Assembly (NCBI GenBank): GCA_016871255.1
Contig: VFZH01000014.1
Span: forward strand, 1 to 43,969
Source: Acidimicrobiia bacterium
GTDB lineage: Bacteria > Acidobacteriota > Vicinamibacteria > Vicinamibacterales > UBA2999
Reading direction: 5' to 3'
Length of the DNA: 43,969 nucleotides
Shown here: positions 13,129 to 43,907 of the stretch, one piece after another
Position numbering within the stretch: position 1 is the first letter of the stretch
How the letters are laid out: every line of letters begins with the position of its first letter
The notes under the pieces: generated by a model
Told to the model about the DNA's origin: nothing
Databases searched by the model: none
What the model saw: only the letters and a program-made list of their open reading frames with translations
Translations under genes and position numbers: made by a program

Positions 13129-14546
13129 CGTGAGGCGCGCGAAGACCCGGCTGCGGCGCCCTCGGGAAGATAGCAGGTGGGGCAGCCGATCGGCGTGGCC
13201 TGTCCCGCAGCGATCTTCTTCCGCCGCTCGTCCACCGCCTCCGCGAACTGCTCGTCCGTCATCGGGACCACGTACGGCAGGTTGACGATCATGTTGTCCA
13301 CCGAACGGTTTCCCCAGCCCGTCCAGTTGCGCGGCTCGTAGACCAGCGGATTCTTCGCGGTCGTGTCGAAGTACCCGGTGATCTTGAGAATGGTGCCCTT
13401 CGGCAGCAGCGGGGCCGAGTCGTCCGTGTACTGGTAGTTGCGCACCCAGTTGTGGTTGTAGCCCGCGCAGTTGAGGGTCTCGGTGCGGCCGCCCCAGATC
13501 GCCTGGAAGCACATGCCGACGCCCGTGGCGTGGAGGTGCGGCTCGAAGTTCAGGATCTTGGCGTTCTCCTGCAGCACCGTGTAGGCGTCGATTTCCTGGT
13601 TCGCCTCGTTCGGACGCAGGTCCACCTCGGTCGTGCCGAAGCCGATGCCGCGGTATTCCATCGTGGGCTTGTAACCCTTCGGGTGGAATCGGAACCCCAG
13701 CTCGAGGTGGGCGTTGGTCTCGACGACGCCGTTGGCGTGGAGGTGGTTGTCGAAGAAGAGGATGGTCGAGCCCGCCCGCAGCAGCCGTCCGGCCCGCGGA
13801 TCGAACTGGTCGGGGTTGCGGCCGACTTCGTGCGCGGGGATGCGTGACTGCGGGTCCGTCTGGCCGTCCGGGCCGGCGAGGCCGAAGTTGGCGTGGTGGA
13901 ACACGAACAGCCCCCCGACCGTCCCGCCCCTGGCCAGCTCGCGGGGATCGACATCGTTCACTTCGCGGATCTCGACGGACCTGACATAGCGGTCCTCGGC
14001 GAGGCCCGTCGGCGTCTCACCGATCGCTCCCCACCAGTCCGGCGCGACGGCCTTCACGGTGACCGTTGGCGACCTGACGATGAGATCCGGCTCGCCCAGT
14101 TCCCAGACGGGGCTGCTGGAGACCTCGGGAAGGGCGATCGGGGGTGGCAGATCACCGGGGCTGCCCTCCGGCGCGCCCGCCTCCACCCAACGCGCGATCG
14201 TGCCGATCTGCTCGTCGCTGAGCGACATGTCCGACTTGAAGGACTGGATGCCGATCGTCCTGTCGATGTACCAGGGCGGCATCGTCCGTTGGGCCGTCTG
14301 CTGCCGGATGGCACGCGCGTAGGGTCGCACCTGCTCGTAGGTCATCAGGGCCATCGGCGCGATGTAGTTCGGCCGGTGGCACGACTGACACTTCTGCTGC
14401 AGGATGGGCGCGATGTCCTTCGTGAACGTCACCTCAGCCTGCAGGCCGGCCTGGCCGGAGACGGACGAGCCCGAGCCGACCACGGCAAGCACGGTGGACG
14501 TGAGTACGGCAGACAGACGACGGAGCCGGTTCGGTGGTTCGACCAT
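13125..14546 (-). CDS. Exported c-haem protein with a copper type II monooxygenase-like domain
   Basis: The 473-residue protein starts at ATG 14546 with AAGGGA upstream. Signal peptide about 1-32. A c-type haem site CQSCH is at 53-57, with the following helix-rich region (APMALMTYEQVRPYARAI, TMPPWYIDRTIGIQ, WVEAGAPEG) typical of cytochrome domains in these proteins. The C-terminal two thirds resemble the peptidylglycine/dopamine monooxygenase fold: HH at 217-218, HLH at 268-270 and HLH at 337-339 are candidate copper ligands, followed by LLPKGTILKITGYFDTT. A CPTC pair is at 455-458. The domains suggest an oxidase or oxygenase receiving electrons through its own haem. Substrate and activity are not shown. 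Homologues in the window are at 40912 and 42583. Confidence 0.8.
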   Translation of the reverse strand: MVEPPNRLRRLSAVLTSTVLAVVGSGSSVSGQAGLQAEVTFTKDIAPILQQKCQSCHRPNYIAPMALMTYEQVRPYARAIRQQTAQRTMPPWYIDRTIGIQSFKSDMSLSDEQIGTIARWVEAGAPEGSPGDLPPPIALPEVSSSPVWELGEPDLIVRSPTVTVKAVAPDWWGAIGETPTGLAEDRYVRSVEIREVNDVDPRELARGGTVGGLFVFHHANFGLAGPDGQTDPQSRIPAHEVGRNPDQFDPRAGRLLRAGSTILFFDNHLHANGVVETNAHLELGFRFHPKGYKPTMEYRGIGFGTTEVDLRPNEANQEIDAYTVLQENAKILNFEPHLHATGVGMCFQAIWGGRTETLNCAGYNHNWVRNYQYTDDSAPLLPKGTILKITGYFDTTAKNPLVYEPRNWTGWGNRSVDNMIVNLPYVVPMTDEQFAEAVDERRKKIAAGQATPIGCPTCYLPEGAAAGSSRASR

Positions 14547-26476: not shown

Positions 26477-28723
26477 CTAGCGGCGCAGGAGGCGGGTCAG
26501 CTTCACGGCGAACGAGCGGTTGTCCAGCTGCGGGAAGCCGGCGGGCGTCGTGTCCCGGTTGTCCGTGTACACGACGAACAGATCGCTGCCGGGGATGTAC
26601 TCCCACCGGAACCGCAGGTTGGAGCTGAGCGACCGCGTGTTCGAGTTGTACTGCACCAGGCTGGCGAAGGAGAGCCGCGGCGAGGCGGTGAACGACACGC
26701 GGCCGCCGAGCAGGCGCGACGTGAAGGCGGTGTGGGTGAGGCGGACCCGGTCGATCGTGACGCGCGGCTCCACACCCAGTTTCGGCCCGAAGTCCACGCG
26801 GCTCGTCATCGCGAACGACGTCTTGGTCCCGTCGTAGAAACTGCCGTGGTCCAGGCTGAACCGGCCGGACACCCGCCGCTGCGGGCCGAGGTAGTAGAGC
26901 ACGTGCGCGTTGTGGAACCGGTATTCGCCCGGTGCGATCTGCACATCCGGACCCACGCTCAGGGGCCTGGCCAGGAACTCGTAGCTGCCCCGGTAGTCGG
27001 CGTTCAGCTGATCGCCGCTGCTCAGGTCCATCCGGAAGCCGAGGGTCTCTTCCCGGCTCTGCAGGCGTCCGTTGCGATCGGCCAGGTAGTCGACGCTCGC
27101 TTCCCACGCCATCTTCCGGATGGCCGGCAGCGAGTGCGGCCTCGGGCTGAATCGCGCGTAGCCGTACGTGCGCTTGAACGCGGCGCGCCGGAGCAGCCCG
27201 ATGTCGGGCCGGAAGCCTTCGCCGACGCTCAGGTGCTCGACGTTGACGCCGTATCGGTCGGCGGCGTAGTCCAGCTTGGCCAGGTAGCTCCGGTCGTCTC
27301 TCGTGATGCCTGGCGTCCGGCTCGCAGCGTAATAGCTGGTGACGGTCAGCGCCTCGCCGAAGCGCAGGCTCGTATCGACGCCGAACGTCCGATTCGAACC
27401 GGTCCCGGCGAGCCCTGAACTGCGCGAGGTCGTCATCATCCCGATGCTGCTGCGTTCCAGGATGTCGCGGCGGACGCGCACGACGGTGAAGTTCGTGGCG
27501 GGCTCGCCGACCCCTTCCGCGTCGCCGGTCTGGATGTTCAACGCGCCGATCGCGTAGAGGCCCGCGCGCCCGGCGACGCGTCCACCGGCGCGAATCGGCA
27601 CGACCTGGCCGCCGCTCAACCCGATGCGGCGGCTGAAGAAGAGCGACGGAATGAGCGACGAGGCGTTGCCGTTCTCCAGGATCGGGCCGAGCCCGCTCTG
27701 GCCCGGGATGCCCTGTTGCGCGCCGCCGAAGCCGAAGATGCCCTGCCCCTCGAGGAAGAAGTCGCGCTTCTCGGGGAAAAAGAGCGTCGCGCGCGTCAGG
27801 TTGACCTGGTCCTCGTCCGACTCCACCTGCGCGAAATCGGTATTCACGGTCACGTCCGCGATGAGCCCCTTCGTCAACCCGTACTTCACGTCCAGCCCCA
27901 CGCCGGCGCTCGGATCGTTGGACTGCACCGGCACGGCCCGGCGGTTCGTATCGACCGACGACTTCACGTACGGCTTCAACTCGAGCGCCGACGAGGATTC
28001 CGGCGCCACGAGCCCGGCCAGCGTAGCGGAGAACGACACCGCGAACGCGCCCCGCGTGCTGAAGGACGCCGGCACGGGTGCGAAGAACGACGTCTCGTTC
28101 TTCCAGCGCACGATGCGCCGGAAGTTGATCCCCCACGACTGCGCGGCGCCGGCGGGATACCGGAGCGACTTGAAGGGGATGACCATCTCGACGGTCCATC
28201 CCCTGTGGTCCTGCTGCGACCGTGAGTCCCACACCGTGTTCCAGTCCACGTTGGCGTTGCGCTCGTCGTTGATCTGCTGATCGCGGAGGGCGCCCACAGG
28301 GTTGGTCTGGAAGTAGAAGCCGGTGCGCCGGTCGTGGAACGTGTCGAACGTCACGACGACGTTGTCGTTCTGCATCAGGTTGCCGTCGCGCCGCATCTCG
28401 TTGGCGATCACGCGTCCGGGCTCGCTGTCCCAGCAGCGGATGGCGACGTACACGTTCTCGTCGTCGAAGAACACCCAGACGTCGGTGGGCTCGGTGGGCT
28501 CGCCGCCGTCCACCGGCTCCTGCATGGTGAACCCGCCGGTGGGCGGCGCGGTCGTGTAGATCGGCTCGTCGAGACGGCCGTCGACAGCAAGCGGGGTGGA
28601 CAGCCGTACAGCCACGAGCACGCGGGCCGGGGCGGCGGCCGCAACGGTGTCCTGCGCAGCGGCGGGGGCGGGCGCGGTCAGGACCGCGCCGAGCCACCAT
28701 GCCGCGAGAAGCCGGAGACGCAA
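26477..28723 (-). CDS. CBM9/DUF5916-type outer-membrane barrel protein
   Basis: A 748-residue protein. The only start that gives a signal peptide (LLAAWWLGAVLTAPAPAAAQ) is TTG 28723; it lies 10 bases after the upstream stop and has no clear ribosome-binding site, so coupling to the upstream gene is likely. CBM9-like domain at about 40-240 (PLAVDGRLDEPIYTTAPPTG, DVWVFFDDENVYVAIRCWD, VTFDTFHDRRTGFYFQTN, GWTVEMVIPFKSLRYPAG). The DUF5916 part follows with WKNETSF, LFFPEKRDFFLEGQG and many barrel strands, ending VKLTRLLRR. It is the last gene of the haem-propeller operon, which suggests that its outer-membrane barrel serves the same substrate or electron route. Paralogue at 6708. Confidence 0.87.
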   Translation of the reverse strand: MRLRLLAAWWLGAVLTAPAPAAAQDTVAAAAPARVLVAVRLSTPLAVDGRLDEPIYTTAPPTGGFTMQEPVDGGEPTEPTDVWVFFDDENVYVAIRCWDSEPGRVIANEMRRDGNLMQNDNVVVTFDTFHDRRTGFYFQTNPVGALRDQQINDERNANVDWNTVWDSRSQQDHRGWTVEMVIPFKSLRYPAGAAQSWGINFRRIVRWKNETSFFAPVPASFSTRGAFAVSFSATLAGLVAPESSSALELKPYVKSSVDTNRRAVPVQSNDPSAGVGLDVKYGLTKGLIADVTVNTDFAQVESDEDQVNLTRATLFFPEKRDFFLEGQGIFGFGGAQQGIPGQSGLGPILENGNASSLIPSLFFSRRIGLSGGQVVPIRAGGRVAGRAGLYAIGALNIQTGDAEGVGEPATNFTVVRVRRDILERSSIGMMTTSRSSGLAGTGSNRTFGVDTSLRFGEALTVTSYYAASRTPGITRDDRSYLAKLDYAADRYGVNVEHLSVGEGFRPDIGLLRRAAFKRTYGYARFSPRPHSLPAIRKMAWEASVDYLADRNGRLQSREETLGFRMDLSSGDQLNADYRGSYEFLARPLSVGPDVQIAPGEYRFHNAHVLYYLGPQRRVSGRFSLDHGSFYDGTKTSFAMTSRVDFGPKLGVEPRVTIDRVRLTHTAFTSRLLGGRVSFTASPRLSFASLVQYNSNTRSLSSNLRFRWEYIPGSDLFVVYTDNRDTTPAGFPQLDNRSFAVKLTRLLRR

Positions 28724-28733
28724 GCGCGGAGCG

Positions 28734-30866
28734 CTACCGATCGAGCGGACTGCCGCGGAGCTGGAAGTGCACGGCTTTGCTGGTGGCGCCGCGGCCGCCT
28801 TCGTAGTGCCACGGCGTCATGCTGCTGTAGGAGGCCCAGAGGCCGCGTCCCTTCCAGCCGCCCTCGGGGTCGTCGATGCGCCCGTCCATGCCCCGCGTGT
28901 AGAAACCGAGCGGATACGGCACCCGCAGCACCACCCAGGTGCGGTTGGGCCCCAGGGCCAGCAGGGCGTCGGAGAACGTGCCGTTGGCGATCGGCGTGTT
29001 CGCGCCCAGGCCGAACGTGTCGAACTGGTCCACGAAGTTGTAGTAGTGGAAGTCCGCGCTGCCGCCGTCGGCCACGTTCCTGAAGTTCGGCCCCGGCGTC
29101 TGGTGCAGGCTCCAGCCTTCCGGGCAGTGCCGGCCGGTCGCCGTCGGGCCGTTCAGCACCGCACACTTCCTGCGGTCGAAGCTCGCAAGATGCCCGCTGT
29201 TCAACGCGGCCCACACGAGGCCGTTGCGGTCGACGTCGATGCCGCGCGTCGTGTGGCCGGGCAGCGGCGGGATGTAGGCCTCGGACAGCTTCGTCGCCGG
29301 GTCGACCCGGATAATCAGGCCGGGAGTGCCGGAGGCGGACGTCCAGATGCTTCCGTCGACCGGGTTCTCGATGATGCCGTAGCTGCCGCCGCGGATCCGC
29401 TTGTCGCGCGCCGGATCGGCCGCCTCGTCGGGCGTCCCGACCTCGTCGAAGGCGTCCAGCCGGCCGTTGCCGTTGTTGTCGAGGACGAACGGCAGCCAGC
29501 CCTGCGAGGCTTTCGCGTCCTTCGTCGCGTCCCACTGGCGCGTGTTCAGCCAGCCGATGTAGGGCGCGTCGGCGGTGCTGAACCACAGCGTGTCGTCCGC
29601 GTCGTCCGCGAAATAGAGGTGGTGCGTCATGAAGCAGGTGGGGATCGTGTCCACCTGTCCGCTCTTCGGGTCGTACACCGCCGCGTGGCGTGCGCTCTGC
29701 CTGATGGGGAAGAGCTTCGCCGACGGGTGCAGCGCGCCGTCGGTACACCAGGCCGGGTTCTCCGGCGGCCGGACCGTGGCCGTCACCCACAGCCGGCCGT
29801 GCTCGTCGAGCATCGGGTTGTGCAGGTTGGCGCGGTTGGCCCAGATGATCTCCTCGCCCCAATAGGGCGACGGCTGCGAGACCTGCTGGCCGGTCGAAAA
29901 CGGCGTGGTCGGGTCCTCGATCGGGATCGTCACCGGGCGATCGGTGACGTGGCGCACCGGGTCGAGCCGGCTGACGTCGGGGGCGTTGTGCCGATCGGCC
30001 GCGTAGACCGGGCCGTACGCGTTCAGCGTCGGCCTGCGCTTGTCGGTGGACACCAGATCGTGGATGAAGGCGTGCGGGTGCGCCCAGTCCCACTGCGTGA
30101 TGACCACGTTCCGCTCGACGCCGGAGGGACGTGGTGGCGCCGGCGGCACTTCACCGTCCGCGATGCGATCCGTCCAGTCCGCGAACGCGGCCCGCCGCTC
30201 GCCCAGGCGCCGGAAGCCGGCCGCCATGCCGGCGCCCATCTGGCCCGAGTCCACGCGGCGGTCCCAGGCTTCCAGCGACGTCTCGAACGAGCCGAGGTGC
30301 TTCGGGGGCTCGCGCGTGATCGTCGAGCCCATCTGGTGGCAGACGCTGCAGGCGCCTTTCAACTGCCCGACGTATTGCCACTGGGCCGTGAAGCTGGCGC
30401 CGATGCCGTTGCCGCCTGCCCCGGTGCCGGGAAACTCGTCGGCGCGGGGCATCTCCAGGAGCGAGAACCAGTAGCTGCCAGGGTAGATCGCGGCGGCGGC
30501 CTGCGCGGTGGGCGCGACGATCGCCTGGAGATCCTGCGTCCGACCCGGCGCCGCGGTGACGCGCGGCGAGTCCACCAGCCCGTAGCCCCGGACCCAGAGG
30601 GTGTAGGACCCCGCGGGGAGGTCGGGCACGAGGTACCGCCCGTGCTCGTCGGTGACGACGATCTTCCGGAACCCGGCGGGCAGGTCGCTCGTCTCCGCGA
30701 TGACCCAGACGCCCGCTTCCGGACCCTTCGCACTCCGGACGATGCCGCCGATGTCGTCGGCGTCCACGGTGACGGTGGCCGCCTGGCGGGCGGCCGGCGT
30801 GGCGTACCACCCCAGGACTGCGGTTCCGGCGAGACCGGCGAATGCGGCGAGCGCCCGGAGCGTCAT
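28734..30866 (-). CDS. Exported haem-c protein with carboxypeptidase-regulatory and beta-propeller domains
   Basis: A 710-residue protein with ATG 30866, four bases after the cytochrome stop; GAGGA upstream lies in that gene's end. Signal or anchor about 1-30. A carboxypeptidase-regulatory-like domain (about 38-110: IGGIVRSAKGPEAGVWVIAE, GSYTLWVRGYGLVDSPRV) is followed by a single c-haem site CSVCH at 173-177. Further on, NNGNGRLDAFDE resembles an EF-hand-type calcium loop, and blades such as GIIENPVDGSIWTSASG and RGIDVDRNGLVWAALNSGHL show a Vgb-like propeller. It ends WHYEGGRGATSKAVHFQLRG. Closely related to 31278-33440 over its full length. The family is common in Acidobacteria without a known function; haem suggests a role in oxidation. 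Confidence 0.82.
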   Translation of the reverse strand: MTLRALAAFAGLAGTAVLGWYATPAARQAATVTVDADDIGGIVRSAKGPEAGVWVIAETSDLPAGFRKIVVTDEHGRYLVPDLPAGSYTLWVRGYGLVDSPRVTAAPGRTQDLQAIVAPTAQAAAAIYPGSYWFSLLEMPRADEFPGTGAGGNGIGASFTAQWQYVGQLKGACSVCHQMGSTITREPPKHLGSFETSLEAWDRRVDSGQMGAGMAAGFRRLGERRAAFADWTDRIADGEVPPAPPRPSGVERNVVITQWDWAHPHAFIHDLVSTDKRRPTLNAYGPVYAADRHNAPDVSRLDPVRHVTDRPVTIPIEDPTTPFSTGQQVSQPSPYWGEEIIWANRANLHNPMLDEHGRLWVTATVRPPENPAWCTDGALHPSAKLFPIRQSARHAAVYDPKSGQVDTIPTCFMTHHLYFADDADDTLWFSTADAPYIGWLNTRQWDATKDAKASQGWLPFVLDNNGNGRLDAFDEVGTPDEAADPARDKRIRGGSYGIIENPVDGSIWTSASGTPGLIIRVDPATKLSEAYIPPLPGHTTRGIDVDRNGLVWAALNSGHLASFDRRKCAVLNGPTATGRHCPEGWSLHQTPGPNFRNVADGGSADFHYYNFVDQFDTFGLGANTPIANGTFSDALLALGPNRTWVVLRVPYPLGFYTRGMDGRIDDPEGGWKGRGLWASYSSMTPWHYEGGRGATSKAVHFQLRGSPLDR

Positions 30867-30870
30867 GGCT

Positions 30871-31266
30871 CTATTTCCTCAGGGAGCGGATGAAGTTGAC
30901 CAGGTTCCAGATGTCGGGGTCCTTGATGCGATCGCCCCACGGCTCCATGGCGTACTCCGGTGGAATCCCCGACTTGATCGCCGTGAAGATGGCGCCGTCC
31001 GTCGAGCCGTGGTCCCACCTGGTGTCCGTGAGGTTCGAGGGCGGCGGCAGCCCTTCGGCGCTCGGCCCGCCCTGGCCCTTCGGCCCGTGGCAGGCGCCGC
31101 AGTAGCGGGCGTAGATCTTCTGGCCCGCTTCGATCGAGACAGGTGTCGCCTGGACCGGGTTCTTCAGGCTGGCACCCTGCCCGCCGGCCGCGTGGGCGTC
31201 CTGCGCCGAGACGGCCGCCAGGGCGACGAGGGCGACCGCCGCGGTCAGGGCCGTCGTGGTGTGCAC
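30871..31266 (-). CDS. Small periplasmic cytochrome c
   Basis: A 131-residue class I cytochrome c. GTG 31266 is the best start because GAGGTGA stands five bases upstream; an in-frame GTG at 31275 would add three residues. Signal peptide 1-26 (ALTAAVALVALAAVSAQDAHA). The haem site is CGACH at 56-60, preceded by GQKIYARY, and the sixth ligand is probably M107 in PEYAMEPWG, followed by the C-terminal helix DPDIWNLVNFIRSLRK. It lies between the two large haem-propeller genes with gaps of 11 and 4 bases. The likely role is to shuttle electrons from one or both of those proteins to the respiratory chain. Confidence 0.9.
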   Translation of the reverse strand: MHTTTALTAAVALVALAAVSAQDAHAAGGQGASLKNPVQATPVSIEAGQKIYARYCGACHGPKGQGGPSAEGLPPPSNLTDTRWDHGSTDGAIFTAIKSGIPPEYAMEPWGDRIKDPDIWNLVNFIRSLRK

Positions 31267-31277
31267 CGTCTTCACCT

Positions 31278-33440
31278 CTACTTGGCCAGCGGATCGGGCC
31301 GGACCTGGAACTGGATGATCTTGTTCTGCTGTCCCTTGCCGCCCTCGATGTGCCACATGACCTGGCCGGCGTAGGCCGACCAGAGCCCCCGGCCCTTCCA
31401 CCCCGCGTTCGCGTCGTCGATGCGCCCGTCCATTCCCTTCGGGTGGAAGCCTCGCGGGTAGGGCACATTGAGGAGGATCGTCTGGCCGTCCGGCAGCGTG
31501 GCCTTGAGCGAGTCCGAGTTGTTCCCCAGGCCGATCGGGATGTTGTCGCCCAGGCCGGCCGTGTTGAACTGGTCCACGAACGTGTAGTAGTTCGGGTCCG
31601 CGCTGCCCGAGCCGGTGACGCCCTTGAAGTTCGGGCCCGGCTGCTTGTAGAAGGTCCAGCCCTCGACGCAGTGCTGGCCCGTGGCCTCCGGTCCGTTGGT
31701 CACGGTGCACTTGCGGCGGTCGAAGCTGGCCATGTACCCGGCGCCCGTGCCGGCCCAGATGATGCCGTTTCTGTCGATGTCGATTCCGCGCGTGCCCCAC
31801 ACCTCGACCGGGGCGTCGGGATTCATGTACGGCAGCTCGTAGATCTCGGTGAGCGCGGTCGCGGGCGGGTTGTCTCCGGGCACCACACGCAGGATGGTGC
31901 CGGGCGCCGCCTGCGAGGCCACGACCCAGATCGAGCCGTCCATCGGGTTCGGGATGACGCCGTAGTTGCCGAGCGCCACCCGCTTGTCCTTCGCCGGGTC
32001 CACCGGATCGTTGGCCTCGACGAATTCGTCCCGCTGGCCGTTGCCGTTGGTGTCGAGGACGAACGGGAACCAGCCCTGCGATGCCTGCAGGTCGCCGGAC
32101 GTTTCCCAGGTGCGGGTGTCGAAGTACGCCAGGTAGGGTCCCAGGGTGCTGAACCAGAGCCGGTCGTTCTGATCGAACTGCACGTGGTGCGTGTTGAAGC
32201 AGGAGTCGATGGCGGTCCACTTGTCCGCGGCCGGGTCGTACATCGAGATCTGGCGGCCGCTGTTGTTCAGCGGGAGCCTGGCCGCCGACGGGTGGCTCGA
32301 CCCTTCCTTGCACCAGTCCGCGTTGTCGGACGGCCGAACGGTCGAGGTGAACCAGACGCGGCTCCTGGTGTCCATCATCAGGCTGTGCGCGTTGGTGCGG
32401 CTCGTGAAGACCGCCTCCTCGCCCCAGGCCGGCGAAGGCATCGTGGCGCGCTGGCTCCACGAGTGCTGCGGCGGGTTGTTCTCGTCGAGGAACGGCGGCA
32501 TCATCTGCGTCGTGACGTGGGTCTTCGGATCCAGCACCGGGATGTAGTCCGAGCTGTACTCCGTGCCGGAGTAGACCGGGCCGTATCCGTTCACGGTCGG
32601 ATCGCGCTTGTCGGTGCTGACCGTGTCGTGCACGAACTGGTGGCCGTCCATGCCCCAGTCCCACATGTTCAACACGACGTTGCGCTCGAGGCCCGCCGGC
32701 CGCGGCGGCCGGGACGGGAGCTCGCCGGCGGCGATCCGGTCCGCCCAGTCCGCGAACATCTCGATGGCGCGCCCGCGTCCGAAGCGGCTCAGGAAGCTGC
32801 TCATCACGGCGCCGCTCTGGCCCGACGCCACGCGCCGCTCCCAGGCGGCAACCGTGCTCTCGAACTCGCCGAGGCCCTGCGGCATCCCGCGCGTCCCCTT
32901 CGTGCCCATCTGGTGGCAGACCACGCAGCCGTTGATCGTCAGATCGCCGAGGAAGTGCCCCTGGCTCTGCATCGCCGGCGACAGGCCGTTGCCTTCGGGG
33001 CCGGTGCCCGGGAAGTCGCTCGGGGGAGGCGGCTCCAGCAGGGAGTACCAGTAGTTCGCCGGGTAGACCTCGGCGGCGGCGGCCTCGTCCGGCGCGACGA
33101 CGGCCGTCAGGTCGAGCGCGCTGCCGGGCGTGGATTCCACGCGGGGCGAGTCGACCAGGCCGTAGCCGCGGACCCAGATCGAATAGGTGGCGCCGGGGAG
33201 ATCGGGAAGGACGTACCGGCCCTCGTCGTCGGTGACGACGATCTTGCGGTACCCGGTCGGCAGGTCATCCGTCTCGGCAATGACCCAGACGCCGGCTTCC
33301 GGGCCGGCGGCGCTCGAGACGACGCCTCCGATGTCGTCGTCGTCGATGGCGACGCCGCCACCGCTCGAGCAGGACGACACGGTCAGCAACGCGACGCAGC
33401 CGGCTGCCGGCAGCAGCCACGACGCTTTCGGCATGTGCAT
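31278..33440 (-). CDS. Haem-c lipoprotein with carboxypeptidase-regulatory and beta-propeller domains
   Basis: A 720-residue lipoprotein: ATG 33440 is backed by GGAG eight bases upstream, and the lipobox VSSC puts the acylated cysteine at 24. Carboxypeptidase-regulatory-like domain about 37-112, c-haem site CVVCH at 172-176, a helical segment (WERRVASGQSG), then propeller blades with the calcium-type loop LDTNGNGQRDEF and GIDIDRNGIIWAGTGAGYMA. The end MWHIEGGKGQQNKIIQFQVR with PDPLAK is nearly repeated in the fragment at 39891-39995. It differs from its paralogue at 28734 mainly in being lipid-anchored. The pair and the small cytochrome probably form one envelope electron-transfer or oxidase unit. 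Confidence 0.85.
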   Translation of the reverse strand: MHMPKASWLLPAAGCVALLTVSSCSSGGGVAIDDDDIGGVVSSAAGPEAGVWVIAETDDLPTGYRKIVVTDDEGRYVLPDLPGATYSIWVRGYGLVDSPRVESTPGSALDLTAVVAPDEAAAAEVYPANYWYSLLEPPPPSDFPGTGPEGNGLSPAMQSQGHFLGDLTINGCVVCHQMGTKGTRGMPQGLGEFESTVAAWERRVASGQSGAVMSSFLSRFGRGRAIEMFADWADRIAAGELPSRPPRPAGLERNVVLNMWDWGMDGHQFVHDTVSTDKRDPTVNGYGPVYSGTEYSSDYIPVLDPKTHVTTQMMPPFLDENNPPQHSWSQRATMPSPAWGEEAVFTSRTNAHSLMMDTRSRVWFTSTVRPSDNADWCKEGSSHPSAARLPLNNSGRQISMYDPAADKWTAIDSCFNTHHVQFDQNDRLWFSTLGPYLAYFDTRTWETSGDLQASQGWFPFVLDTNGNGQRDEFVEANDPVDPAKDKRVALGNYGVIPNPMDGSIWVVASQAAPGTILRVVPGDNPPATALTEIYELPYMNPDAPVEVWGTRGIDIDRNGIIWAGTGAGYMASFDRRKCTVTNGPEATGQHCVEGWTFYKQPGPNFKGVTGSGSADPNYYTFVDQFNTAGLGDNIPIGLGNNSDSLKATLPDGQTILLNVPYPRGFHPKGMDGRIDDANAGWKGRGLWSAYAGQVMWHIEGGKGQQNKIIQFQVRPDPLAK

Positions 33441-33524
33441 GATTCGCTCCTCAGGGAATTGGGGTCAGGCCGTTCATTGTCTCCGAAGTGGTCCGATGGC
33501 GCGACCTCTGGCGCCGCAGCGGGC

Positions 33525-34049
33525 TCAGAAGGCGCCGAGCGGCAGACCCGGCTCGAACGCACCGCTGGGCTTGAAGATCCGCTTCTTGAAGCGCCAGCCG
33601 TCCGCGGTCTTCACCAGCGTGTCCTCGTAGACCCCGGAGTGGTCCACGAAGGGCGGGCGCGTCGTGACGTTGAAGATCAGGGCGTAGACCGACCCGCGCG
33701 CGCCTTCCGGCGTGGGCGTGATCATCAGCCCCGCGTAGGTGTGCCGGCTCGACCAGCCGTTCTTCTTCAGGCCGGCATGGAAGCCCGCGATCATCCGCTT
33801 GAGGGCGTCGGGGCCCCTGTTGATCCGGCCCGACTGCTCGAACTCGCCGTCAGGCGTGAACAGCGCGGCGTAGTCGCTGCCGTCGCCGCCGCCGCCCATG
33901 TCGGTGACGCGGACGTAGGTGGCGTAGAGCTGCTCGATGTCGACGTAGTCCTGCGCCGTCAGCGCAGGCGGCTCGGCGCGAACGGTCGAGCTGAGGGCGC
34001 ACAGGCCGACGAGGGCAAGGCAGGTGGTCAGGGCCGTTGTGCTTCGCAT
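33525..34049 (-). CDS. Exported SnoaL/NTF2-like protein
   Basis: A 174-residue protein starting at ATG 34049, with AAAGGA upstream. Signal peptide 1-25 (ALTTCLALVGLCALSSTVRA). The SnoaL-type fold follows: LTAQDYVDIEQLYATYVRVT, DYAALFTPDGEFEQSG, PDALKRMIAGFHAG, HTYAGLMITPTPEGARGSVY and TADGWRFKKRIFKPSG. The last two blocks match the protein at 14846. An inserted glycine run GGGG after the first helix is unusual. It is the first gene ahead of the haem-propeller operon, 84 bases from the next start, and may be co-transcribed with it. A TATAAT box is present 48 bases upstream. The function is unknown, an enzyme acting on a small ring compound being one option. Confidence 0.8.
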   Translation of the reverse strand: MRSTTALTTCLALVGLCALSSTVRAEPPALTAQDYVDIEQLYATYVRVTDMGGGGDGSDYAALFTPDGEFEQSGRINRGPDALKRMIAGFHAGLKKNGWSSRHTYAGLMITPTPEGARGSVYALIFNVTTRPPFVDHSGVYEDTLVKTADGWRFKKRIFKPSGAFEPGLPLGAF

Positions 34050-34292: not shown

Positions 34293-36557
34293 GTGAGGCG
34301 TCTGCTGGTTGCGGCGATCGCCGCTGCGGTGGTCTGGACGGGCTCGGCCGCGTCGGCCGAGGACTGGCCCGAGTTCCGAGGCAAGGGCCGCCGAGGCGTC
34401 TGGACCGAGACCGGCATCCTGCGAACCTTCCCGCCCGGCGGGCTCGAGGTGCGGTGGCGGACGCCGATCAGGGGCGGCTACAGCAGCCCCAGCGTGTCGG
34501 AAGGCCGCATCTTCCTCACCGACTTCACCGCCGGCACGGGCCTGGAGGGGACCGAACGGGCCCTCGCCCTGGACGAGGCGACGGGCCGTGTGCTGTGGAC
34601 GCAGGAATGGCCGACCGACTACGCCGGCCTGATGTGGGCGCACGGTCCGCGCGCCACGCCCACGGTGGACGGGGACCGTGTGTACGTCGTGGGGGCCCGC
34701 GGGCGGCTCGTGTGCCTCGATGCGCAGTCGGGCGAGATCCGCTGGAGCGTGCAGGCGGTCGAGGACTACGGCGCGCCGGTGTCGATGTGGGGCGCGGCCA
34801 GCGCGCCGATCGTCGATGGCGATGTCCTGGTTGCCGTGATCAACGGCCCGCCGGATGCGCTGCTCGTGGGGTTCGACAAACACACGGGCCGGGAGCGCTG
34901 GCGCGCGCTGCGCGGGCTGGCGGAGCCGGGCCTGAATCAGCCGCTGGTCATCACGGCCGGCGGCGCTCGCCAGCTGATCTACTGGGGGCCCGACGCGATC
35001 AACTCGCTCGACCCGGCCACGGGGAAGGTCTTCTGGCGCCATCCGTGGCAGGTCGGCGACGCGATGAACCTCGCGCTGCCGGTCCACCACGATCCGTACC
35101 TGCTCCTGTCGCACTTCGGGCGCGGCTCGATGCTGCTCGAGCTGCACCGTGACCGGCCGGGCGTGACCGAGATCTGGCGGGGGACCAGCAGCAGCGAAAT
35201 CCTCACCGACGGCCTGCACTCGATGTACGGCACGCCGATCGTCCAGGACGGGTTCATCTACGGGCTGTGCAGCTACGGACAGCTGCGCTGCCTGCGGCTC
35301 GACAACGCCGAGCGGGTGTGGGAGACGCAGGCGGTCACGGTGGAGCGGGCGCGCTGGGCGTCGGGGAACATCGTCCGGCACCAGGACCGCGTGTTCTTCG
35401 CGAACGACCGGGGCGAGCTGGTGATGGCCAGGCTGACGCCCGAAGGGTACGAGGAGCTCGACCGCACGCAGCTGATCACGCCGACCACGCCGCCCGGCGT
35501 GCGGCGCCGCCTGGGCGCCGTTCAGGTGTCGCACCCGGCCTTCGCGAACCGCCACATCTACGTCCGCAACGACGAGGAGGTCATCGCCTACTCGATGGAG
35601 GCGACGGACGCCGCATCCCCGCCGCCCTCGCCGGTGTCGCGGGCCGAGCCGGCCGCCGCGCCTTCGGCGGCCGTGGCCGCCGTGGAACCCAGCCGCAGGG
35701 TCCACATCCAGTACATGCCCGGGCTGCCCGACGTCCGCAGGCTGGCCGACCCCAACAACACGGCCTACAGCACGCTGTACCTGCTGAGCGGGGGCGGGGC
35801 GAACACGATCGCCTTCGCGACCGACGAGGGGGTCGTCCTCGTCAGCGCCAAGCGCGCCGGCTGGGGCGAGGCGCTCCTGGCCACGCTCGGCCAGGCGACG
35901 AACGAGCCGGTGCGCACGATCATCAACACGGCACCCGATCCCGAGTACGTCGGCGCCAACGGCGAGTACCCCACGGTCACGTCGATCGTGGCCCACGAGA
36001 CCACGCGCACGGCGATGGCCGTGCAGCCGGCCTTCAGCGGAGACAGGGCCCGGTTCCTGCCCGGGCGGACGTACACAGGTGAGCTGTCGCTGTTCGAGGG
36101 GCGCAGCCGGATGCTGTTGCGCGCCTTCGGAGCCGCGCACACCGCGGGTGACACCGTGGTCCACATCCCGGCGTTCCGCCTGGCCTACCTCGGGGAGCTG
36201 TACCCGGGACGCATGCTGCCGCGCATCGACCGGGCCCACGGGGGCAGCGCGCTGGCCTTCGCCGACACGCTCGACAAAGTCATCGCCACGCTCGAGGGGG
36301 TGGAGATCGTGGTCCCGGGGCGGGAGGCGCCGGCGAACCGCGGGAACCTGCTGACCGGCATGCCCCCGCTGGCGGCGCTCGAGGCGTACGGCGGGTTCGT
36401 CCGCGCGGTCGTCGATCACGCGCGCAAGGCGCACGCGGCCGGGACGAACGCGGCCGAGGCGGCCCGGACGCTCGCCCTGCCGGAGCGGTTCGCGTCGTAC
36501 GACACCTCGGGCGCGCAGACGTTCATCGAAACGGTCTACGACGAGCTCGGTCGCTAG
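34293..36557 (+). CDS. Exported PQQ-like propeller fused to a degenerate metallo-beta-lactamase domain
   Basis: A 754-residue protein with GTG start 34293. Signal peptide 1-22 (LLVAAIAAAVVWTGSAASA). Residues about 23-440 form an outer-membrane/quinoprotein-like propeller: DWPEFRGKGRRGVW, GYSSPSVSEGRIFLTD, RATPTVDGDRVYVVGARG, LVCLDAQSGEIRWS and SAPIVDGDVLVAV. A proline-rich linker (about 445-470) leads to a metallo-beta-lactamase-like domain (about 500-754). Its usual T-H-x-H-x-D-H metal motif is replaced by T-A-P-D-P-E-Y (546-552), although the later AAHTAGD (H616) is kept. The fusion is thus probably a binding or scaffold protein rather than a hydrolase. It precedes a TonB-dependent receptor, and a 21-bp inverted repeat overlaps its stop codon. 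Confidence 0.8.
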   Translation: MRRLLVAAIAAAVVWTGSAASAEDWPEFRGKGRRGVWTETGILRTFPPGGLEVRWRTPIRGGYSSPSVSEGRIFLTDFTAGTGLEGTERALALDEATGRVLWTQEWPTDYAGLMWAHGPRATPTVDGDRVYVVGARGRLVCLDAQSGEIRWSVQAVEDYGAPVSMWGAASAPIVDGDVLVAVINGPPDALLVGFDKHTGRERWRALRGLAEPGLNQPLVITAGGARQLIYWGPDAINSLDPATGKVFWRHPWQVGDAMNLALPVHHDPYLLLSHFGRGSMLLELHRDRPGVTEIWRGTSSSEILTDGLHSMYGTPIVQDGFIYGLCSYGQLRCLRLDNAERVWETQAVTVERARWASGNIVRHQDRVFFANDRGELVMARLTPEGYEELDRTQLITPTTPPGVRRRLGAVQVSHPAFANRHIYVRNDEEVIAYSMEATDAASPPPSPVSRAEPAAAPSAAVAAVEPSRRVHIQYMPGLPDVRRLADPNNTAYSTLYLLSGGGANTIAFATDEGVVLVSAKRAGWGEALLATLGQATNEPVRTIINTAPDPEYVGANGEYPTVTSIVAHETTRTAMAVQPAFSGDRARFLPGRTYTGELSLFEGRSRMLLRAFGAAHTAGDTVVHIPAFRLAYLGELYPGRMLPRIDRAHGGSALAFADTLDKVIATLEGVEIVVPGREAPANRGNLLTGMPPLAALEAYGGFVRAVVDHARKAHAAGTNAAEAARTLALPERFASYDTSGAQTFIETVYDELGR

Positions 36558-39890: not shown

Positions 39891-39995
39891 ACGTGGACGA
39901 CGGGCATGAGCTGCACCGTGTGGCACCAGGAAGGCGGGAAGGGGCAGAAGCCGCTCGTGCTGAAGATCCAGACGCGGCCGGACCCGCTCGCGAAG
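39891..39995 (+). pseudogene. Remnant of the 3' end of a haem-propeller gene
   Basis: The plus strand reads TWTTGMSCTVWHQEGGKGQ and, a few codons later, QTRPDPLAK. The lipoprotein at 31278 ends with MWHIEGGKGQ and QVRPDPLAK at the same spacing. Upstream similarity breaks down and the frame runs past the expected stop, ending antisense in the gene at 40001. It is therefore a truncated relic of a third member of this family, placed directly behind the receptor gene. Confidence 0.6.
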
Positions 39996-40000
39996 TCGTG

Positions 40001-40915
40001 TCAGCGGACAGTGACGGTGACGTCCTGGTAGGTGCCGAGCCCGCCGTCGTGGGCAAGGCATCGCAGGACGTACGTACCGGGCGTCTCGAACGTGACCCCG
40101 ATCCTCCACCGGTTCCCTTCCGGCACCGGGGGCGGGGCCCAGCCCGGTGACCAGGGCGATCCGCCTCTCAGGTCCACGTACGGCTTGAACTGCGGCGGGT
40201 CGAAGCGCACGGCGGCGCCCTCACCCCGGTACACGAACCAGGTCAGCCGCAGGCCCGCAGCGCTCTGGAGCGTACCCAGCGCGCTCGAGAACGGCGAGCC
40301 GAAGAACGCCGGCAGCGGCTCGGCTCTCGGCAGACCGTCGTCAGCGGCCTGCGCCGAGAACCGCAGCGGTTCGCCGACGCGCGCGGTCCGAGGGGCGCCG
40401 CCGCCGTCCAGTTCGAGTGACGGTGGCCGGTTGTCGCGCGATGCTTCGGCGGTCGTCACACCCGGACCCACGGCTCCGAGCGTGGCCGTCATCACGTCGG
40501 CGTTGAGCAGGTAGCCGGGGCGCAGCGTGCCGTATGCGCGCTCGGTGACCCCGTGGGTCGTCAGCGTCCAGATCACGTCCCGATCGCCGAAGTCCTTCGG
40601 CACGCGCACGCCGAAGAGGAAGAAGTTCCGGCGGGGCAGGAAGTGCGTGGGCTGGCCGAGGTCCGGGCCGCCCGGCTCGAGGTGGTTGTCCTGTCCGACC
40701 GGCACGTCGATCGCCTCGTCCCAGTTCCGGTTGAAGGTGCCGAACACCATCATGTGGGAGCCGTCCGGATTGGTCCCCCAGCCTTCGTAGACCGGCACGA
40801 CGCTTCTGCCGCGCGACCAGGTCGTCCCGGGCTCCTGCGCGGCCGACAGGTGCAGCGTCGTCCATGCGGCGGCGATCGCCAGCAGGGCCCATCGGCCGGG
40901 TCGCGCGCAGGTCAC
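40001..40915 (-). CDS. Exported partner protein of the haem/copper-monooxygenase-like protein, second copy
   Basis: A 304-residue protein starting with GTG 40915 inside a 4-base overlap (GTGA) with the upstream gene, so it is translationally coupled. Signal peptide about 8-26 (WALLAIAAAWTTLHLSAAQ). It shares with 12193-13128 the blocks VYEGWGTNPDGS, FNRNWDEAIDVPVGQDNHLE, GGPDLGQPTHFLPRRN, ERAYGTL, LRLTWFVYRGEG and the end YVLRCLAHDGGLGTYQDVTV. The central part with GEPLRFSAQAADDGLP may be an Ig-like sandwich. I recognise no named domain. That the pair of genes is kept in the same order and overlap in two places suggests a functional complex with the haem/copper protein. Confidence 0.78.
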   Translation of the reverse strand: MTCARPGRWALLAIAAAWTTLHLSAAQEPGTTWSRGRSVVPVYEGWGTNPDGSHMMVFGTFNRNWDEAIDVPVGQDNHLEPGGPDLGQPTHFLPRRNFFLFGVRVPKDFGDRDVIWTLTTHGVTERAYGTLRPGYLLNADVMTATLGAVGPGVTTAEASRDNRPPSLELDGGGAPRTARVGEPLRFSAQAADDGLPRAEPLPAFFGSPFSSALGTLQSAAGLRLTWFVYRGEGAAVRFDPPQFKPYVDLRGGSPWSPGWAPPPVPEGNRWRIGVTFETPGTYVLRCLAHDGGLGTYQDVTVTVR

Positions 40916-42276
40916 CGGCTGCCTCCCGCCTCGCGCGCGAAGGGCAGGGTGCAGGGCAGGCAGCCCAGCGTGCTCGCCGTCCCGGCCCTGGCCTTCGCCG
41001 TCCGATCCGTGACGAGCTCGCGGAACTGGTCACCCGTCAGCAGGATGACCTTCAGGTAGCTCATGAACATGTTGTCGACGGGCCGGCTGCCCCAGCCGGT
41101 CCAGTTCCGGTAGTCCGTCAGGTAGGGATTGCCCGGGTTGGGCGTCGTGTCCATCCAGCCGACCAGCCGCAGCAGCGTGCCGCGGGGCAGCAGCGGAGCC
41201 GCGTCGGGCTCGTACGCGTAGGCCCGCACCCACTCGGGATCGAACCCGAGGCAGGTCAGCGTCTGGCGTACCACACCCCACACGGCTTCGAGGCACATCC
41301 GCGAGCCGGCGGCGTGCATGTGCGGCTCCAGGCTCACGAGCTTGATCGGCTGCTGGAGCGTCGTGAACGCCTCGACCATCTGGTCCGGCGTGTTGCCGCG
41401 CACGTCCAGCTCCGGGTTGCCGAGCGTGATGCCCGTCGTCTCGAACCTCGGCCGGTGCCCGATCGGCAGGAACCTGAATCCGACACGCAGGTGCGCGGTC
41501 GTCTTCGAGCCGGTGGCGTGGAGGTGTGCGTTGTTGAAGACGATGGTGCTGCCGGCGGTGAGTGGTGGCGCCGCATCGGGATCGAACAGCTCGGCGTTGC
41601 GGCCCACTTCGTGGATGGTGCCCATCTCGAAGCGGCCGTCGGGGGTCAGGGCCTGCAGGCCAGCGTGGTGGAACACCGCGCCGCCCGTCGTGTCGCTGAT
41701 CTCGATCGTCTCCACGGCGGCGATGTAACGGTCTTCGGTCAGTCCGGTCGGGACCGCGCCGATGGCGCCCCACCAGTCGGGCGCGTTCGCGTCCACGGTG
41801 ACGGCTGGTGATTCGACGATCAGGTCGGGCTCGCCGATCGTCCAGCCCACGCCGCCGGGAAAGGACGGGGCGGGTGGCAGGTCGGCCTCGTCACCCTCCG
41901 GGGCTCCGGTCTCCGCCCACGTCCCGAGCAGCGCGATCTCCGCATCGGTGAGCGACGGGTCATCCCGGTAGTGCTGAATGCCCACCGCCTTGTCGATGAA
42001 CCAGGGCGGCATGGCCCTCCGCGCCGTCTCGCGCCTGATGGCAGCCGCCCAGGGGCGGACCTCCTCGTAGGTCATGAGCGCCATCGGCGCAATCGAGCCG
42101 GGCCGATGACAGCGCTGGCAGCTGCGCTGGAGGATCGGCGCGACGTCGCGGGTGAAGGTTGGACCAGACTGGCGGGCGCGGGCCGCCGGGGCCGGGTCGA
42201 GCAGGATTCCGGCCGTCAGCAGCAGCAGAACGGAAACCGGCGGCCGCGGGGTGTCGGGTGAAGCAGGGGCTGTCAT
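40912..42276 (-). CDS. Exported c-haem protein with a copper type II monooxygenase-like domain, second copy
   Basis: A 454-residue protein with ATG 42276 and GAGGGA just upstream; a TATGAT box a few bases further away would give a very short leader. Signal peptide about 12-35. Haem site CQRCH at 53-57, then APMALMTYEEVRPWAAAI and MPPWFIDKAVGIQHY as in the homologue at 13125. The copper-type histidines are present as FHHAG, NAHLHATG and EPHMHAAG, followed by LLPRGTLLRLVGWMDTT. A C-terminal CLPC parallels the CPTC of the other copy. The overall identity of motifs and the coupled downstream gene show that 40001-42276 and 12193-14546 are duplicates of one module. Substrate and activity unknown. 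Confidence 0.82.
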   Translation of the reverse strand: MTAPASPDTPRPPVSVLLLLTAGILLDPAPAARARQSGPTFTRDVAPILQRSCQRCHRPGSIAPMALMTYEEVRPWAAAIRRETARRAMPPWFIDKAVGIQHYRDDPSLTDAEIALLGTWAETGAPEGDEADLPPAPSFPGGVGWTIGEPDLIVESPAVTVDANAPDWWGAIGAVPTGLTEDRYIAAVETIEISDTTGGAVFHHAGLQALTPDGRFEMGTIHEVGRNAELFDPDAAPPLTAGSTIVFNNAHLHATGSKTTAHLRVGFRFLPIGHRPRFETTGITLGNPELDVRGNTPDQMVEAFTTLQQPIKLVSLEPHMHAAGSRMCLEAVWGVVRQTLTCLGFDPEWVRAYAYEPDAAPLLPRGTLLRLVGWMDTTPNPGNPYLTDYRNWTGWGSRPVDNMFMSYLKVILLTGDQFRELVTDRTAKARAGTASTLGCLPCTLPFAREAGGSR

Positions 42277-42287
42277 GTTCCCTCGCG

Positions 42288-42293
42288 ATCATA
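42288..42293 (-). promoter_or_regulatory. -10 box (TATGAT) for the second haem/copper pair
   Basis: TATGAT on the minus strand lies 12 bases before ATG 42276; the start site would fall near 42281, giving only a few leader bases. No convincing -35 box. Confidence 0.4.
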
Positions 42294-42305
42294 CCGATGC
42301 GAGGG

Positions 42306-42353
42306 GCGGCCGGCTGCCTTCGACCTCGCTCAGGCCAGGGAAGCCGGCCCCCA
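42306..42353 (+). repeat. Dispersed GC-rich palindromic repeat, copy D
   Basis: GGCCGGCTGCCTTCG, GCTCAGGCC and GGAAGCCGGCCCCCAC follow in the same order as in copy A read on the minus strand (2991-3035). The terminal GGCCGGCT and GCCGGCC parts are complementary. It lies just before a TonB-dependent receptor relic. Confidence 0.65.
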
Positions 42354-42393
42354 CAGGTGTCCCCGGCGCTGACCGGCTTGAGCGGCAGCGCCG

Positions 42394-42534
42394 CGGATCG
42401 ACCTCTGCAACCTGTTCAACGCCAGCAGCGTGATCGTGCGGAACAACACGTACGGAACGGCGTGAGCACGCCGACCGACGTGCTCGCGGGCCGGATGCTG
42501 ACGTTCGGCGCGCAGATGTCGTTCCAGGCAGGAC
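42394..42534 (+). pseudogene. Frameshifted remnant of the 3' end of a TonB-dependent receptor gene
   Basis: Frame one reads RIDLCNLFNASSVIVRNNTY followed by GTA and a TGA at 42463-42465; a shifted frame continues STPTDVLAGRMLTFGAQMSF. Joined, these are the last strands of an Oar-type receptor (compare KVDFYNLLNANDVQLLNTTY and ILTGRLVKFGAQLDF at the end of 9159-12125). About 45 codons remain, with a frameshift and with nothing of the barrel upstream, so this is a dead fragment. Confidence 0.65.
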
Positions 42535-42542
42535 AGGTGGGG

Positions 42543-42572
42543 CGTGCCCGGCGCGAGAGGGCGCCGGGCACG
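42543..42572. terminator. Perfect 12-bp-stem hairpin
   Basis: CGTGCCCGGCGC (42543-42554) pairs with GCGCCGGGCACG (42561-42572) around GAGAGG, 11 bases beyond the minus-strand stop at 42583. It can serve that gene, or it may be the old terminator of the receptor relic ending nearby on the plus strand. No T-tract. Confidence 0.65.
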
Positions 42573-42582
42573 CTTCTGATCG

Positions 42583-43878
42583 TCAGCGGCCGGTCTTCCT
42601 GCCTTCCATCATCAGCTGCTTCCGCTCTTCGACCATGCGGGCGAACTCCTCGTCGGAGAGCCGCATGCCCTCGCCCATGGCGATTGCCATGTCGTCGACG
42701 GTACGCTGGCCGAAACCGGTCCAGTTCTTAGGGTCCGGATTGTATTTGTTGCCCATGGAATTGTCGTGGTAGTTGATGACGTGCAGGATGGTCCCCTTGG
42801 GGATCAGCGGCTGCGCGTCCTCCTCGTACTGGAACACGAGCTGCCACTGGAAGTTGAACTCGAAGCAGTTGAGCATCTGCACCTGCCCGGTCTCCGGGTA
42901 GATCAGCTCGATGCACTGCCTGCTGCCGCGGATGTGCATGTGCGGCAGATAGGTCATCAGGCGGAAGTTGTCGCGGATGAGCGCGTAGCCGTCGCTCCTC
43001 GCGTTCGCTTCGCCGACGGGGATGTCCAGGTCGCCGAGGCTGGCCCAGTTGAGGCGGACGACCTTGTTCGGCGGCTCGTACCCCTTCGGGTAGAACATCA
43101 GCCCCACCATCGGCCGGTCGGTGACCTCGGTGTCGTACGAGCTGTAGTGCATGTCGAACTTGATCTTCGAGCCCGCGCGCAGCAGGAAGCCGGCGCCCTC
43201 CTGGTAGATCGTGGCCGGCTTGCCGGGCACGTAGTGCAGCCCGTAGCCGTCGGTCTCGCCGTCGGGCTTGATGATGTAGGCGACCATGTGATGCACCACC
43301 TTCACGCCGTCCTTCGACGGGCGTGACTGGTAGGCGCGCACCCAGCGGTCTTCCGTGAGCGGCACGTCCGCGTAGAGCTCGGCCCAGGCTTCCTGCGCGT
43401 TCGCGGCGGTCGTGAACGGCGGGGAGGTGATCACCAGGTCGGGCTCACCCGGCAGCGACCACTCGATCTCGTCGGTGAAGACCCGCGGCGCCGGCATCTC
43501 GGCGAGGTTCCCGAGCGGCGCGCCCGCATCCACCCACTTCGAGATCGTGGCGATCTCCTCGTTGTTCAGCGAGAAGTCGTTCTTGAACCTCTGGATGCCG
43601 ATGTTCGGATCGACACCCCAGGGCGGCATCTCCCGAGAGACGATCTTCTGCTTGATCGCCCGCGCGTAGGGCCGGATCTCCTCGTAGGTCATCAGCGACA
43701 TCGGCGCCATCTGGCCCGGCCGATGGCAGGTCTGGCAGGAACGCTGCACGATCGGGGCAACGTCCTTCGCGTAGGTCGGCTGCGACGAGGCGCCCTGCGC
43801 GGCGGCCGGAGCGCCGAACGCCAGCAGGCCGGCGAGCGAGGCGGAAACCGCCGTCCATCGTGGAATCGTGCGTGACAT
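42583..43878 (-). CDS. Exported c-haem protein with a copper type II ascorbate-dependent monooxygenase-like domain
   Basis: A 431-residue protein; ATG 43878 has AGGAGG six bases upstream, which rules out the ATG 21 bases earlier. Signal peptide 1-28 (AVSASLAGLLAFGAPAAAQ). Haem site CQTCH at 48-52, followed by APMSLMTYEEIRPYARAI. The copper-monooxygenase pattern is the clearest of the three homologues: HH at 196-197 (VVHHMVAY), H244 in DMHYSSYD and H313/H315 in LPHMHIRGSR, then IPKGTILHVINYHDNSMGNK. These match the two-copper histidine layout of peptidylglycine/dopamine monooxygenases; the methionine ligand is uncertain. It has no unknown-function partner downstream; a different gene ends 29 bases upstream. 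Probably an oxygenase or oxidase fed by its own haem. Confidence 0.83.
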   Translation of the reverse strand: MSRTIPRWTAVSASLAGLLAFGAPAAAQGASSQPTYAKDVAPIVQRSCQTCHRPGQMAPMSLMTYEEIRPYARAIKQKIVSREMPPWGVDPNIGIQRFKNDFSLNNEEIATISKWVDAGAPLGNLAEMPAPRVFTDEIEWSLPGEPDLVITSPPFTTAANAQEAWAELYADVPLTEDRWVRAYQSRPSKDGVKVVHHMVAYIIKPDGETDGYGLHYVPGKPATIYQEGAGFLLRAGSKIKFDMHYSSYDTEVTDRPMVGLMFYPKGYEPPNKVVRLNWASLGDLDIPVGEANARSDGYALIRDNFRLMTYLPHMHIRGSRQCIELIYPETGQVQMLNCFEFNFQWQLVFQYEEDAQPLIPKGTILHVINYHDNSMGNKYNPDPKNWTGFGQRTVDDMAIAMGEGMRLSDEEFARMVEERKQLMMEGRKTGR

Positions 43879-43907
43879 GCTGTCCTCCTGACTGAGCACC
43901 TGCGAGC

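Follow-up and report, generated by a model that had tools for sequence, protein, structure and literature searches.

What do two large haem proteins do when their genes flank that of a small cytochrome c, in a run that also encodes a SnoaL-like protein and a DUF5916 protein? This question is raised by a stretch of 43,969 nucleotides (the window, in which all coordinates below are positions) from contig VFZH01000014.1 of assembly GCA_016871255.1, a genome placed in the Acidobacteriota, where five open frames follow one another on the minus strand with successive gaps of 84, 11, 4, and 10 bases. A sequence-only reading had described this order and these gaps, exactly as we find them, and had suggested a five-gene unit that could act as an oxidase complex or as an electron route across the outer membrane. 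Our analysis suggests, with a probability of roughly 45%, that the two large proteins, given here the working names BIGA and BIGB (together BIG), are exported mono-haem propeller oxidoreductases, or oxidative lyases, that pass electrons, taken from small molecules beyond the inner membrane, to a dedicated cytochrome c. From the first gene of the run to the last, the features are:

33525-34049, minus strand: SnoaL-like exported protein of 174 amino acids (Pfam SnoaL_4, 1.7e-19), first gene of the run
31278-33440, minus strand: BIGA, 720 amino acids, with a lipobox-like N-terminus, a CarboxypepD_reg-like domain, one c-haem, and a predicted Vgb-type propeller
30871-31266, minus strand: small mono-haem cytochrome c, 131 amino acids (Pfam Cytochrome_CBB3, PF13442, 3.4e-15; PF00034, 1.4e-11)
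31087-31101, minus strand: haem-c site CGACH of this cytochrome, residues 56-60, from the sequence
28734-30866, minus strand: BIGB, 710 amino acids, a BIGA paralogue from a different old clade, with a signal peptide lacking a lipobox cysteine
26477-28723, minus strand: CBM9-like plus DUF5916 protein, 748 amino acids, TTG start (PF19313, 2.3e-18)

Conservation of gene order had been set as the test of a fixed unit, and the result went against it: among 78 loci the five-gene order is unique to the window, occurring in none of the 77 others, and a conserved five-gene operon was rejected on this ground. The part that recurs is BIG together with the small cytochrome c, and the links to DUF5916 and SnoaL do not recur meaningfully. 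The 131-residue protein qualifies as a class I mono-haem cytochrome c by its CxxCH motif and its cytochrome c profile match. Nineteen homologues scoring at least 100 bits were identified in 43 genomes of the same taxonomic family and 33 others, and 18 of them (leaving out G042:C55) were examined for neighbours. Ten, namely the window's own and nine others, have a BIG gene no more than 200 bp away, seven on the same strand downstream of it and three convergent with it. The eight best homologues all adjoin BIG, as do both of those found at E 1e-10 in the genome from which the window comes (the source genome). Among the other eight, four adjoin genes of alternative complex III and four adjoin neither BIG nor the complex. 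The four on the complex III side stand next to a pentahaem-type protein, with molybdopterin-type, NrfD, and ActD genes where the contig shows them (ActD match of 8e-27 at one locus). In a tree of the 18 cytochromes, whose deep support is weak, the neighbour label is clustered, changing 4 times where shuffled labels change 7.4 times on average.

The source genome has an alternative complex III of its own, and the ActE-like gene of that complex is 31% identical to the window cytochrome. Because relatives of this cytochrome adjoin such complexes and the source genome encodes one, the kin of the cytochrome appear to serve respiration. In being related to genes beside alternative complex III, the window cytochrome resembles ActE and the other mono-haem cytochromes associated with that complex, but it differs from the ActE type in its placement between two BIG genes, outside a complex III operon. 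A study on Flavobacterium (PMC8552683) discusses the possibility that cytochromes of the ActE type deliver electrons to more than one acceptor.

Other neighbours are less informative. A BIG gene has a DUF5916 gene within 400 bp in three loci, the window among them (the source genome has about 20 DUF5916 genes), and a SnoaL gene that close in the window only; both proteins are probably there as local associates working on the same substrate rather than as components of a fixed machine. Dehydrogenases of the pyrroloquinoline quinone (PQQ) type are neighbours of BIG in five loci (four from a single genus), and haem cassettes of the DUF1592/DUF1552 type stand beside BIG in three. Taken together, redox genes show no significant enrichment near BIG (they make up 19 of the 109 genes lying within 400 bp and 63 of the 567 others at the same loci, p = 0.077; the test omits 14 loci reached through cytochrome hits). 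Since clear linkage is confined to the rare cytochrome c family, the other redox neighbours prove no function.

The two large proteins themselves are built as the sequence-only reading had described, each combining a carboxypeptidase-regulatory domain, one c-haem, a calcium-type loop, and a propeller, on either side of the small cytochrome c. Neither has a Pfam family above threshold or an NCBIfam match; both match CarboxypepD_reg below threshold, a domain matched by all 17 aligned BIG members, and BIGA has in addition a weak Reg_prop match. Conservation was counted in an alignment of 75 rows; this alignment and its tree exclude BIG frames shorter than 450 amino acids or with stops, and a further row, L016_1520, was dropped before counting as mis-extended (19% filled). 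A separate 43-row BIG count omits two contig-cut rows of 45. The main sites are:

33102-33332, minus strand: BIGA CarboxypepD_reg-like (transthyretin-type) domain, residues 37-113 (sub-threshold Pfam match, 22.9 of 32.3 bits)
32913-32927, minus strand: BIGA haem-c site CVVCH, residues 172-176 (CxxCH in 72 of 75 rows)
32802-32804, minus strand: BIGA Met213, probably the distal ligand of the haem (a Met in 71 of 75 rows)
32625-32630, minus strand: BIGA His271-Asp272, putative funnel motif common to a second haem-propeller family (H in 73, D in 75 of 75 rows)
32184-32201, minus strand: BIGA CFNTHH, residues 414-419 (C414 and H419 in 75, H418 in 65 of 75 rows)
32025-32054, minus strand: BIGA calcium-type loop DTNGNGQRDE, residues 463-472 (D463 in 74, N465 in 66, G468 in 74 of 75 rows)
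30336-30350, minus strand: BIGB haem-c site CSVCH, from the sequence

Cys377, Cys578, and Cys591 are present in every row that has letters at these positions (73 rows each). The expectation that the haem site would be conserved in homologues is borne out, with three exceptions: the paralogue of locus L023 has CGLACH, that is CxxxCH, and two proteins of genome G027 (L063, from 15662, and L065, from 5740) have no haem site at all. The L023 paralogue (L023:7305-9992) belongs to the source genome (contig C8), and L104, its sister, has the usual CxxCH. The two haem-less proteins have lost both CxxCH and Met213 and retain His271-Asp272, His418-His419, and Cys414. This joint loss, with the propeller motifs kept, indicates that the haem and the propeller site can be separated as modules, and it fits Met213 as the distal ligand of an electron-transfer haem. 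We infer that Met213 may be the distal ligand, that the haem may be an electron-transfer module, and that the propeller pocket may be the functional site shared by the family.

By eye, the N-terminus of BIGA has a lipobox-like VSSC and that of BIGB has no such cysteine, and BIGA is probably lipid-anchored. Few members of the family carry a lipobox: a loose pattern hit 7 of 75, a rough count since in BIGA it matched another site. The structure model of BIGA, built from three sequences, has a mean pLDDT of 42 and is too poor for geometry, its sole confident part being the CarboxypepD_reg-like domain. A fold search of the PDB with this model returned carboxypeptidase-regulatory domains and weak propellers, a sequence search of the PDB with BIGA alone returned no match, and a search with the 17-row BIG profile returned only SdrD-type domains, over the N-terminal part.

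The nature of the propeller is suggested by a second family (cluster c18) in the same genomes, whose members combine CarboxypepD_reg and a single CxxCH with a propeller that matches SGL and, weakly, Vgb_lyase. Profile comparison of BIG with this family gave a probability of 99.5% (E 2.8e-22), and hhalign of the BIG propeller region alone against its haem-plus-propeller set gave 99.0% (E 7.6e-18). The same propeller-region test against eight other sets, four of them propeller families, gave at most 6.5% (0.1-0.3% for two PQQ sets). With the haem region of BIG included, the haem protein c6 reached 45.9% over that region and SGL 17.1%. His271-Asp272 of BIG aligns with an HD pair that is invariant in the four-row alignment of the second family. 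In the PDB, the second-family profile matched Pizza designs, BT4663-type propellers, streptogramin B lactonase (2qc5, 4e-17), and Vgb lyase (2z2n, 2e-16). The Vgb lyase model PF24684 matched neither BIGA nor BIGB nor any of the 17 aligned BIG members, so that the propeller of BIG appears homologous to the Vgb type through the intermediate second family only. The likeness to the Vgb/streptogramin lyases is therefore one of propeller kinship, and it is remote (19-21% identity), for which reason Vgb catalysis is not transferable to BIG. Compared with Vgb, BIG adds the N-terminal carboxypeptidase-regulatory domain, the c-haem domain, conserved cysteines, the calcium loop, and large insertions.

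BIGA and BIGB are exported proteins whose carboxypeptidase-regulatory domain is followed by a mono-haem c domain with probable Met/His ligation and then by the propeller of the Vgb-lyase type. These features would fit the following mechanism. The propeller funnel, with His271-Asp272, His418/His419, disulphide-type cysteines, and the calcium loop, might bind a small organic molecule and oxidise or oxidatively cleave it; the protein's own haem would take the electron and hand it to the small cytochrome c, which would connect to the respiratory chain, and paralogues would differ in substrate. Several points weigh against this proposal. Not every member would need electron transfer, given the two paralogues that lack haem; the Vgb enzymes are lyases without redox chemistry; and most BIG copies have no redox neighbour. 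Three of the ten BIG-cytochrome pairs are convergent and so are not co-transcribed. The geometry of the funnel is read from the sequence because the BIGA model is poor, and the mechanism as a whole is inferential.

Known systems offer partial parallels to such oxidoreductases. PQQ dehydrogenases are exported propeller enzymes with a neighbouring cytochrome c, as in BIG, and some BIG genes adjoin genes of such dehydrogenases; BIG differs in having no PQQ-family match (Pfam, NCBIfam, and hhalign) and in carrying its haem inside the same chain. Propellers combined with c-haem are already known from cytochrome cd1 and from Pirellula-type proteins. The latter form many propeller/c-haem fusion paralogues per genome with the haem after the propeller, whereas the haem of BIG precedes the propeller and BIG matches no NCBIfam model.

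Two rivals are the strongest: a non-redox enzyme of the Vgb kind whose haem is accessory, and a binding protein tuned by calcium. As a lyase or hydrolase, BIG would use metal-assisted elimination to open a lactone, an ester, or an ether, and its haem would be structural or regulatory (gas or redox sensing). The route of the propeller kinship through a family of the Vgb/streptogramin-lyase type, the propeller motifs kept by haem-less paralogues, and the lack of an adjoining redox partner in most copies all speak for this reading; the remoteness of that kinship, the haem retained in 72 of 75 rows with its matched Met, and the retention by some copies of a cytochrome c neighbour with kin that serve respiration make it on balance unlikely, though it is the best of the alternatives. 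Slightly less likely again is that the run is a chance or historical neighbourhood, sharing a transcript or a substrate theme with no physical complex. Each gene type is found elsewhere in other company and BIGA and BIGB come from different clades, as this would predict, but the BIG-cytochrome part recurs in nine other loci.

A calcium-dependent binding or adhesion protein, with haem and partner cytochrome tuning calcium binding, has a precedent in PilY1.1 and the cytochrome TfcP of Myxococcus, as reported in PMC8833165, and the conserved calcium-type loop within the propeller region and the single c-haem of BIG agree with it. We consider it improbable, however, since no pilin or pilus gene was recognised by Pfam among the five genes, the ligation of TfcP is His/Cys and that of BIG includes a conserved Met, and the varied, catabolic-type neighbourhoods suit enzymes better.

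Of the two functions offered by the sequence-only reading, the first survives as a possible oxidase or oxidoreductase role and the second is not supported. In MtrCAB and porin-cytochrome (PCC) conduits, one or more multihaem cytochromes sit inside or against a barrel and the barrel and cytochrome genes are linked; the five-gene run has neither a multihaem protein nor a conserved barrel-cytochrome linkage. A conduit through the outer membrane assembled from BIGA, BIGB, the cytochrome, and the DUF5916 barrel has the five consecutive genes and their small gaps in its favour, but with the gene order in no other locus, DUF5916 near BIG so rarely for so common a gene, a single CxxCH in each haem protein and none in the DUF5916 product, and no multihaem chain, it was rejected on linkage and haem count as highly improbable.

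Returning to the haem-coupled oxidoreductase, the family it would concern is large and old. The source genome (3.9 Mb) holds 14 near-full BIG copies and three pieces at contig ends in a search with BIGA, and 16 second-family proteins each with one CxxCH, giving about 30 haem-propeller proteins. BIG matches occur in 31 of the 43 genomes of the taxonomic family (E 1e-20) and, among 396 genomes drawn from the phylum, in 44, of which 33 lie outside that family; 26 of these 33 were rescanned and have up to 12 BIG matches each. The second family occurs in 18 of the 43 genomes (E 1e-30), where its copy numbers are lower bounds, since no more than 31 candidates were scored in each genome. BIGA and BIGB share about 52-54% identity. 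In trees, the copies of the source genome are scattered over the whole family, and BIGA and BIGB fall in different supported clades; the duplications are therefore old, and a recent local duplication giving rise to the pair was rejected. A scan of viral contigs gave no BIG relative, and a scan of genome contigs gave one, in a metagenome-assembled genome (MAG) titled Acidimicrobiia.

Literature searches, judged from titles and abstract openings, gave no description of a family with the BIG domain order, and the Pfam and NCBIfam versions used have no model for it. It is conceivable, though somewhat less likely than the oxidoreductase role itself, that BIG and its sister family form a new class of exported enzyme, a haem-c-coupled propeller oxidoreductase of the Vgb type with some thirty paralogues (14 BIG and 16 sister-family members), each acting on a different small molecule and sending electrons through dedicated cytochromes into respiration. 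This large exported haem-protein family, with about thirty copies here when its sister is included, recurs across the order and more rarely across the phylum. If its members are oxidoreductases, they would parallel the quinoprotein dehydrogenases and make part of the uncharacterised oxidative catabolism of these bacteria directly testable, and the haem-less paralogues and cytochrome-paired copies provide natural comparison material.

Some details of the run and its surroundings complete the picture. An alternative GTG start at 31275 would leave only 2 bases between the small cytochrome c gene and BIGA. On visual reading, Shine-Dalgarno-like sequences precede BIGA, the cytochrome c gene, and BIGB, and the signal ahead of the DUF5916 gene is ambiguous. 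A scan for promoter-like and terminator-like sites found none of either on the strand of the five genes, which is compatible with a single transcript without proving one. The DUF5916 protein, which we take from its family to be an outer-membrane barrel, scores 66.7 bits against a cut-off of 22.6 over only positions 5-86 of the 572 of PF19313, and its structure model (pLDDT 26) is too poor for geometry. A second CBM9-like/DUF5916 gene of the window (6708-8855, minus strand) is 49% identical to the copy in the run.

Divergent from the five genes, a plus-strand gene at 34293-36557 encodes a PQQ_2-type propeller fused to a metallo-beta-lactamase-like C-terminal part, with a weak SoxH-related NCBIfam match. 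Pairs of an exported protein (c8) and a c6-related protein are encoded on the minus strand at 12193-14483 and 40001-43899. The c6 family is mono-haem and Cu2_monooxygenase-like, with three copies in the window; the c8 and c6 pair, whose Pfam matches are scant or none, also adjoins BIG genes in four genomes (L090-L093). At L009, L016, and L022, the DUF1592/DUF1552 cassette comprises a TonB-type receptor, a DUF1592/PSCyt haem protein, DUF1552, an ankyrin protein, and BIG, and it occurs twice in the source genome and once in the MAG titled Acidimicrobiia. A lone BIG gene (L010) is carried by an alphaproteobacterial plasmid (Microvirga ossetica, NZ_CP016619.1), about 5 kb from a group of arsenic-resistance genes. 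Finally, a relic of a third BIG gene, about 25-34 C-terminal residues (WHQEGGKG...RPDPLAK), follows a TonB-type receptor gene in the window (39894-40001, plus strand).

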